From Promethearchaeota archaeon (GTDB taxonomy: Archaea > Asgardarchaeota > Lokiarchaeia > Sigynarchaeales > SOKP01), in NCBI GenBank assembly GCA_004524515.1, contig SDNV01000058.1:1-16750 (forward strand): DNA of 16,750 nucleotides, given 5' to 3'. Made by a program: the position numbers and the translations under genes. The first letter of the stretch is position 1. The number at the start of each line of letters is the position of its first letter. Below the pieces are notes generated by a model, which was given only the letters and a program-made list of their open reading frames with translations, made no database searches and had not been told where the DNA came from. Shown in pieces: positions 14,622 through 15,955 of the stretch.

Positions 14622-15955
14622 ATGAATAAAAATAATATTGCAGTAATGGGGCTAAGTTGGGGAGATAATAAGGTACATACCTTTTTACCCTAAACGAAGG
14701 AAAAGGTAAGTTTGTTGATTACTTAGCCCAGAAAGCCGATATTGTAGTTCGTTTCAATGGAGGAAACAATGCTGGACACACTATCAATGCAGATGGTATT
14801 AAATATAAATTCAAATTGATCCCTTCTGGTGCTCCCTTAGAAAAAGAGGTTATAATAGCTAATGGGTGCGTTGTGGACCCGAAAGTCTTACTTGAAGAAA
14901 TTGAAAATTTAAAAAGATTAAACAAAAAAATTAATCTTAAGCTCAGTTCCACAGCACACGTAATATTTCCATTTCATCGAATATTAGACGGACTAGAAGA
15001 GAAATCAAAAGGAGAATATAGTGCAGGTACTACAAAAAGAGGGATTGGCCCCACTTATGCTGATAAAGCCGCCCGGTGGGGAATTCGAGTATTCGATTTA
15101 ATACATCCTGAAATTTTAAAGCCAAAATTAGAGAGATTATACAAAATTAAGAAAGAATTAATAAATATATATGATCCTTCTTGGGATATTGACTTAGATT
15201 CCTTATATGAAGAATATAAATTATATGGTGAGCAATTAAAGCCATACGTAACTGATACAGCCTATTATCTGAATAAAGCAATCGATGCAGGAAAAAGAAT
15301 TGTGTTTGAAGGAGCACAAGGAAATTTGTTAAGCATAGATCATGGTATGTATCCATTTGGAACAAGTTCGAATGCGAATGCCCTTGGTATTTGTGCTGGA
15401 ACTGGAATCCCTCCTAAAAAAATTGGTAAAATTTTTGGAATTATTAAAGCTTATACATCACGAGTGGGAGAAGGTAAATTCCCCACAGAACTATTTAATA
15501 ATATAGCAGAAAAAATTCGCGAGCAAGGCCATGAATACGGAACCGTAACAGGAAGACCCCGACGAGTGGGATGGATTGATCTTTTTAATATTAAATACGG
15601 TATTATGATAAATGGTGTTGATAAAATAATAATTACTCTTTTAGATGCTTTACAGGGTATCAATCCTATAAAAATCTGTACTACCTATGAATTAAATGGA
15701 GAAATCCTTGAAAGTTGGCCAATTCAATCAGAGATCATTGATAAATGTAAGCCAATTTATAAAGAATTTGAGGGGTGGGAACCAAGAACCCAGAAAGAAT
15801 GGTCCGAAATAGCAAAACAAGGATATGAAGCGCTACCTGATACAATGAAAAAATATATTCAGGCAATCAAAGAAGAATTGAAAATTGATATTGCTTTGAT
15901 ATCAATAGGGCCTGAAAGAGAAGACACAATCGCATTGGAAGAAAATTTTTTTTAA
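14622..15955 (+). CDS. purA: Adenylosuccinate synthetase, coding sequence interrupted by a putative 29-nt intron
   Basis: PurA joins IMP and aspartate with GTP to give adenylosuccinate, the first committed step to AMP. Exon 1 (14622-14664) encodes MNKNNIAVMGLSWG plus the first base of Asp15. Exon 2 (14694-15955) continues with ...EGKGKFVDYLAQKAD. Joined, they give 434 aa, the usual full length. Motifs: the GTP-binding/catalytic loop WGDEGKGK (13-20) with catalytic Asp15, NNAGHT with catalytic His43, IPSG (57-60), GTTKRGIGPTYADKAAR, FEGAQG, GTSSNANALGICAGTGIPP and TGRPRRVGWID. As written in DNA, the frame breaks after Gly14 and meets TAA at 14691-14693, giving only a 23-codon peptide. Any internal start, such as TTG at 14816, would lack both catalytic residues. 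The rest of exon 2 (about 420 codons) is intact and well conserved, which argues against a pseudogene. The stop overlaps the convergent pfkB stop. Confidence 0.9.
14665..14693 (+). other. Putative 29-nt archaeal mRNA intron with bulge-helix-bulge motif
   Basis: The segment interrupts the GDEGKGK codons of purA. Proposed fold: exon GGGG (14659-14662) pairs with intron CCCU (14688-14691), three G-C pairs and one G-U, as the 4-bp central helix. A 3-nt bulge AGA (14663-14665) precedes the intron hairpin TAATAAGGT/ACCTTTTTA (14666-14674 with 14679-14687, one T-T mismatch, ACAT loop). A 3-nt gap AAA (14692-14694) follows the central helix. Cutting between the second and third nucleotide of each, as archaeal tRNA-splicing endonuclease does, gives AG|A and AA|A, and ligation restores GGA-GAC-GAA (Gly-Asp-Glu) in phase 1. 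An exon-exon outer helix is not evident, so this is the relaxed HBh' type. Protein-level data alone also allow borders shifted by one or two bases (14666-14694 or 14667-14695). Confidence 0.8.

Follow-up and report, generated by a model that had tools for sequence, protein, structure and literature searches.

Here we report that a 29-nt insert in the purA gene of a Lokiarchaeota genome is very probably an mRNA mini-intron. It appears to be one member of a population of such introns which, judging from their sequences, would be cut by the archaeal splicing endonuclease EndA and joined by the RNA ligase RtcB. The preliminary description of this DNA had proposed a single bulge-helix-bulge (BHB) intron in purA; that insert is present, but it is not alone, being one of a population spread over at least six genes. 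The class of mechanism is already known; the novelty is that, within a single order, numerous mRNAs would carry mini-introns of one stereotyped form. Because inserts of the same design occur in five other conserved genes of related genomes, including RNA polymerase, mRNA introns are likely to be far more frequent among archaea than the single familiar case implies.

A 29-nt insert splits an aspartate codon of purA

The window, by which we mean the whole stretch of 16,750 nucleotides that was analysed, contains purA at 14622-15955 on the forward strand, and direct reading finds the gene broken by 29 nt at 14665-14693. Exon 1 (14622..14664, +), which aligns with intact relatives, starts with the ATG at 14622, encodes MNKNNIAVMGLSWG plus the first base of an Asp codon, and ends in TGG GGA G. 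The insert, ATAATAAGGTACATACCTTTTTACCCTAA (14665..14693, +), comes next, and exon 2 (14694..15955, +) resumes with AC GAA GGA AAA GGT AAG, completing the Asp codon and continuing through EGKGK to the stop. Left unspliced, the frame from the ATG reads MNKNNIAVMGLSWG and then meets a stop within the insert. The interrupted Asp, which we take to be the catalytic base, is composed of G (14664) and AC (14694-14695), a phase 1 split (G|AC) by the predicted BHB intron. As the preliminary description had claimed, the WGDEGKGK motif is divided here, and both the sequence and its fused translation confirm that deletion of 14665-14693 yields a 434-aa PurA with the conserved motif, the junction-spanning peptide NNIAVMGLSWGDEGK and no other lesion in its 434 codons. 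Pfam recognizes the product as adenylosuccinate synthetase (PF00709, 440 bits over 14816-15955).

The annotated PurA of the window is a 379-aa piece with an internal start. Two proteins 93% identical to the window's PurA share that internal start residue (protein records P0003, P0108, P0117), suggesting that in these relatives, too, purA probably contains the intron and has been mis-annotated in the same way. If the inserts are spliced, gene callers mis-annotate carriers, the window's 379-aa piece being an example.

With the bulges constrained, the exon-intron borders of the insert fold into a 4-bp helix flanked by two 3-nt bulges. On the forward strand, the exon strand GGGG (14659..14662) pairs with the intron strand CCCU (14688..14691), the 5' bulge AG|A (14663..14665) has its predicted cut after 14664, and the 3' bulge AA|A (14692..14694) has its predicted cut after 14693. 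The intron hairpin (14666..14687, +) consists of a 9-position stem (14666-14674 / 14679-14687) with one U-U mismatch and an ACAU loop (14675-14678, +). This is the fold that had been drawn before, and under the bulge constraint it can form. WGDEGKGK is kept by exactly three cut registers, of which the BHB rule selects one, again in agreement with the earlier account; cuts between bulge residues 2 and 3 give a joined purA encoding WGDEGKGK and 434 aa. In the mechanism that we propose, pairing of exon GGGG with intron CCCU in the purA pre-mRNA would leave one bulge on either side of the helix. EndA would cleave within these bulges, at AG|A and AA|A, and ligation of the exons by RtcB would restore the G+AC Asp codon and full-length PurA. 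As four intron nucleotides pair with the upstream exon, the exon would supply one strand of the cutting signal.

The window's central helix and hairpin were rarely equalled by chance (p 0.001 in 2000 intron-only shuffles with the exons fixed; p 0.003 in 300 shuffles). Unconstrained folds of the insert region were ordinary (z of 0.07, -1.25 and -1.56 for 71, 56 and 46 nt), and in them the exon UU pairs with the AA of the 3' bulge, so that this bulge is partly closed in the window's free-energy minimum. The fold of the window's sequence alone is unexceptional. A single sequence leaves doubt, and it is therefore the comparison with relatives that carries the case.

Self-splicing and spliceosomal introns are excluded by the insert's size, its borders and the failure of any Rfam family to match the window, even at a threshold of E 0.5. 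The borders read AT...AA and not the GT...AG of a spliceosomal intron, and 29 nt is far below ribozyme size, which together with the Rfam result disposes of group I, group II and other known RNA elements.

The same codon of purA is filled or empty in relatives

Genome contigs scanned for relatives of purA yielded 56 loci, mostly from Lokiarchaeota, bearing out the earlier suggestion of a probable Asgard host. A purA match occurs in 68 of the 79 genomes of the Lokiarchaeota order, and the 5' site was read in 64 of these (G013, G047, G066 and G078 were left out). The comparison with related genomes that the preliminary description had suggested reveals both states of the site, with an insert at the identical codon in 10 of the 64 genomes and a clean, intact empty site in 54. 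Counting the window there are 11 purA carriers, the others being L018, L021, L023, L025, L026, L027, L046, L101, L107 and L117. Their inserts at this codon measure 29-32 nt and diverge widely in letters, except for an identical pair (L018/L021) and some related ones, but they always start after TGGGGAG and always end before A(C/T)GA. The Gly codon is GGA in 11 of 11 carriers, as against 15 of 44 distinct intron-free genes at least 60% identical, a comparison that ignores kinship. Five-letter loops (ACTTC, AGATC, AAATC) are found among the purA introns, and in L101 (G030) a second insert in purA separates the His of NAGHT from the Thr that follows.

On a protein tree of 55 purA sequences, from which L117 (a gene fragment) and L029 (5' end missing) were omitted, the insert label needs 8 changes (7-9 across bootstrap trees) and shows no significant clustering, 68 of 500 shuffles being equally low. 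These results indicate that the insert repeatedly came or went in purA; gain and loss are indistinguishable on this tree. It had also been considered that the interrupted gene might be a decayed copy beside an intact one. The carrier genomes, drafts of unknown completeness, speak against this: in them we saw no second intact purA, the extra matches in G030 and G041 being short fragments.

Five further genes contain similar inserts

Further sites were found through ab initio scans for BHB structures with frame fusion and through cross-comparison of sequence stretches, in which strict E-values missed short first exons and looser second pieces worked. There are 12 insert sites: two in purA, four in an LsrF-like aldolase gene (assigned by an NF006081 match above cut-off), one in argG, three in the gene for RNA polymerase A' (rpoA'), and one each in cdhD and cdhA. 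Across the order, 24 of 79 genomes contain at least one insert in purA, aldolase, argG or rpoA'. Aldolase inserts occur in nine of the 54 genomes matching below E 1e-100; one G026 aldolase gene has three of them, and site B lies at residue 223 of 265. The argG insert, at SGGL-D, is found in seven of 27 genomes with a match. Six of 72 matching genomes have rpoA' inserts, located at GHFGH-IEL (G029, G030, G037, G039), one codon later (G028) or at EDG-LP (G030, G046). No additional intact rpoA' copy was seen in the carriers, and across the phylum (205 of 227 genomes matching) stops or splits in the rpoA' N-terminus fall only within the same order, among the matches listed. Inserts in cdhD and cdhA occur in G030 and are missing from the 93-95% identical genes of G031. 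Among 70 genomes with any cdhA match, a near-full-length match with an internal stop was found only in G030; cdhA of G006 and G045 differs in length within one open frame. For argG, rpoA', cdhD and cdhA, DNA was read at the loci retrieved and wherever a match looked irregular, and the remainder was taken from the match table. In the fused ArgG, RpoA' and CdhD, Pfam domains are continuous over the junction.

Several individual loci deserve mention. The rpoA' gene of G037 (L301) holds a 65-nt insert at GHFGH-IEL that reads as two neighbouring introns, of 30 and 35 nt, separated by about 5 nt of exon. Adjoining rtcB in G006, L136 (slice 628-658, +) contains a candidate 30-nt mini-intron at GELKVI-D-MQVF, with Asp split G|AC, in a gene with no informative Pfam match over the junction. 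The cdhA gene of G038 (G038:C28:104785-107190) matches as three separate pieces, of which the central one contains a TAA, and may include an insert. The G028 aldolase (L189 / L217) has two TAA codons at positions where relatives have Glu, without an insert, reflecting decay, error or something else. In L248 (G028 argG) the contig stops just past SGGLD of the argG start (GGTCTTGATTTT); this is probably a broken contig and possibly an intron-bearing argG. The hairpin loop ATTTC is common to rpoA' inserts L270, L294 and L302 and to cdhD, and such recurrence of five-letter loops at unrelated sites may hint at shared descent or spread.

Helices are conserved across the insert population

The structure test covered 39 inserts at 12 sites, 37 of them distinct, with the 65-nt insert of L301 left out. 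Cuts were restricted to those giving the conserved peptide and the best BHB was taken, and the shuffles (300 letter shuffles for each insert) were given equal freedom. All four pairs of the exon-intron helix are present in 36 of the 39 inserts, compared with 11.7% in shuffles, and the BHB p was 0.017 or less in 34. The five that did not beat their shuffles are purA L027 (three of four pairs), aldolase D L218, rpoA' L270 site 1, L294 and L302. The central helix of L107, made of three G-U pairs and one G-C pair, does not form in the constrained fold, and in L101 the second of the two purA inserts folds weakly overall (p 0.27). Aldolase site D (L218) was counted, yet it resembles a tandem repeat.

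The inserts are also uniform in layout. Among the 37 distinct ones, 18 are 30 nt long, seven 31 nt and nine 32 nt (34 of 37 at 30-32 nt), with the tested set spanning 29-36 nt plus one insert of 50 nt; 27 are in phase 1, and 21 have the 3' bulge AA|A. In the 30-nt class, 1 nt precedes a 9-bp stem that encloses a 5-nt loop; 4 nt complementary to the upstream exon follow, and then a final 2 nt. When 17 distinct 30-nt introns were stacked without gaps, aldolase D excluded and close relatives included, standard pairs filled 95.5% of cells over 13 pairs, against a mean of 51.9% when the 3' letters were redealt (sd 2.9, maximum 59.7 in 500) and 26-44% in slid registers; with close relatives in the set, these percentages are not probabilities. 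At aldolase site B, exon GCGT is paired by intron GCGC, ACGC or ACGT; the G026 exon reads GTGT, a synonymous change, and its intron has ACAC to match. Compensatory change thus keeps the helices among relatives, exon and intron changing together both at this site and among the 30-nt introns, as covariance of the kind envisaged in the preliminary description. With relatives carrying the insert and its conserved helices, the BHB reading given there is supported.

Genomes of the order encode the putative splicing enzymes

Of the order's 79 genomes, 78 encode at least one member of the EndA family (PF01974), and 65 encode two or more. These genes are of two strengths, scoring near 100 and near 70 bits. 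The stronger can be aligned with EndA alpha of Aeropyrum pernix along almost its full length (3p1z, E 2.7e-34). The weaker has FEKD where the stronger has EHS, and is thus probably a structural beta subunit. Such an alpha and beta pair suggests an enzyme of the (alpha-beta)2 type, which, according to the accessible text of PMC6379350, cuts canonical and relaxed BHB. Of the ten purA-carrier genomes, all have a PF01974 gene, seven have both types, and nine have RtcB (PF01139). Among profile matches in these draft genomes, the alpha type was not found in G003 and G004 nor the beta type in G002, and RtcB was not found in G024; draft status may explain these gaps. We infer cutting, joining and the agency of EndA and RtcB from the structure, the co-change and the presence of the enzymes.

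Alternative explanations

Short hairpin inserts that contain a stop and sit in genes thought to work would look alike under programmed ribosomal bypassing, in which ribosomes hop over the hairpin, as in phage T4 gene 60 and the mitochondrial byp elements. For seven of the 37 distinct inserts there is indeed a register in which the landing codon equals the take-off codon. However, bypassing reads whole codons and involves no exon-intron helix. The window's codon pairs GGA/CTA and GAT/AAC do not match, and in purA L023, L025, L026, L046 and L117 the one join allowed runs through the Asp codon, which a hopping ribosome could not put together from two halves. Five of the seven argG inserts have no whole Asp codon at either edge, so that hopping would yield a different residue there. 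Pairing with the upstream exon would also be left unexplained, and we consider bypassing extremely unlikely. It is equally unlikely that the inserts mark decayed genes or sequencing or assembly artefacts. The genomes are metagenome assemblies, the inserts introduce stops and frameshifts, and the G028 aldolase does have two stop codons without an insert; yet one insert plan recurs at 12 sites, mostly at 30-32 nt, with the protein exactly restored each time. In carriers of rpoA' and purA inserts we saw no other intact copy, and the window's 434 codons are otherwise clean. Recurrence in separate records with different letters means that the insert is not one assembly error, an outcome for which the earlier account had allowed.

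The patchy distribution (8 changes on the purA tree, without significant clustering), the several sites per gene and the clean empty sites would suit a small mobile DNA element, excised from DNA in part of the population and not from RNA. What such an element would have no need of is the geometry of an EndA recognition element, with exon pairs kept by co-change, and we give this idea hardly any probability. A BHB intron whose splicing is regulated, acting as an on/off switch of PurA synthesis, would fit the position of the insert near the gene's 5' end and the stop inside it; any activity would require removal. This too is improbable: 54 of 64 relatives do without the insert, and elsewhere an insert may lie deep in the gene, as does aldolase site B at residue 223 of 265. 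Our preferred reading is that of mRNA mini-introns, with EndA making the cuts and RtcB the joins, and if the inserts are spliced in this way, an Asgard order needs RNA splicing for essential proteins.

Relation to known introns and possible extent

The BHB introns of crenarchaeal cbf5 resemble the Lokiarchaeota inserts in having a BHB at the border, predicted cuts between bulge residues 2 and 3, a hetero-oligomeric EndA, and presence with lineage-specific loss among relatives (PMC2738675). They differ in occupying one site of one gene in two crenarchaeal orders and in having a variable internal region, whereas the Lokiarchaeota inserts lie at 12 sites in at least six genes and form a near-constant 30-32 nt hairpin. 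Splicing of cbf5 was shown by cDNA, while in Lokiarchaeota we infer it; introns in further protein genes are described as predicted and unconfirmed in the accessible part of the same paper (PMC2738675). The BHB intron of HVO_1309 in Haloferax volcanii is likewise an mRNA substrate of EndA, tested in vivo and in vitro, but it lies in the 5' UTR and interrupts no reading frame; besides this case, the accessible text of that 2020 paper names only the cbf5 mRNA intron as reported in archaea (PMC7714728). Archaeal pre-tRNA introns share the arrangement of 3-nt bulge, 4-bp helix and 3-nt bulge and the use of EndA (PMC6379350), differing in their tRNA hosts. Many tRNA introns, abundant at unusual positions, are described from the Asgard Atabeyarchaeia and Freyarchaeia, and the accessible part of that paper concerns tRNA introns only (PMC11291895). 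Within the open-access literature, preprints and subscription papers being outside our scope, no report of mRNA introns in Asgard archaea stood among the papers listed.

A sample of 226 kb from G030, not chosen for introns (four contigs picked for EndA, RtcB or purA hits, with purA itself outside), contains six introns in five genes: aldolase, argG, cdhD, cdhA and, with two, rpoA'. Extrapolated to the 3.7 Mb of G030, this gives about 100 introns, from one small sample and with imperfect detection. Samples of 400 kb from G005 and G031 held no convincing insert besides the known purA and argG ones, suggesting that intron richness varies. It is quite possible, if somewhat short of probable, that Lokiarchaeia possess a spliceosome-free, genome-scale system of mRNA introns, with hairpins of about 30 nt that, in the species richest in them, would number around a hundred per genome. 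On this tentative reading, introns would come and go at the most conserved motifs of essential genes, borrowing the upstream exon as half of the cutting signal, and RNA polymerase, PurA, ArgG and CO-dehydrogenase/acetyl-CoA synthase would depend on tRNA-splicing enzymes. Were this true, intron-rich mRNA would exist in the archaeal kin of eukaryotes. With so many sites filled in some genomes and empty in others, these relatives of the eukaryote ancestor offer a direct test of how introns could spread where there is no spliceosome.

Candidates set aside and neighbouring gene

The ab initio scans returned 100 hits, at least 376 hits and 34 clusters, and missed known introns too. Most of their hits were spurious, produced by gene ends, pairs of genes or shadow frames, and candidates were kept only if confirmed by Pfam or relatives. 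Set aside for want of such confirmation were L146 7927, L158 16780, L164 8391, L059 2297, L034 5283, L172 12895, L169 2893 and L173 8083. From the 98 clusters of the cross-comparison, low-identity, single-support and shadow-frame ones were dropped, for example L266 5320 (42%), five loci with a 24-nt difference from L016, and L143 6225. Weak cross-comparison matches were also seen in L023 near 6214 and in L031 near 86.

Upstream of purA in the window, the gene at 13527-14435 on the reverse strand gives a match to the GIFT domain of IFT52 (PF23355, 39.4 bits, cut-off 27.2), IFT52 being a eukaryotic cilium-transport protein.
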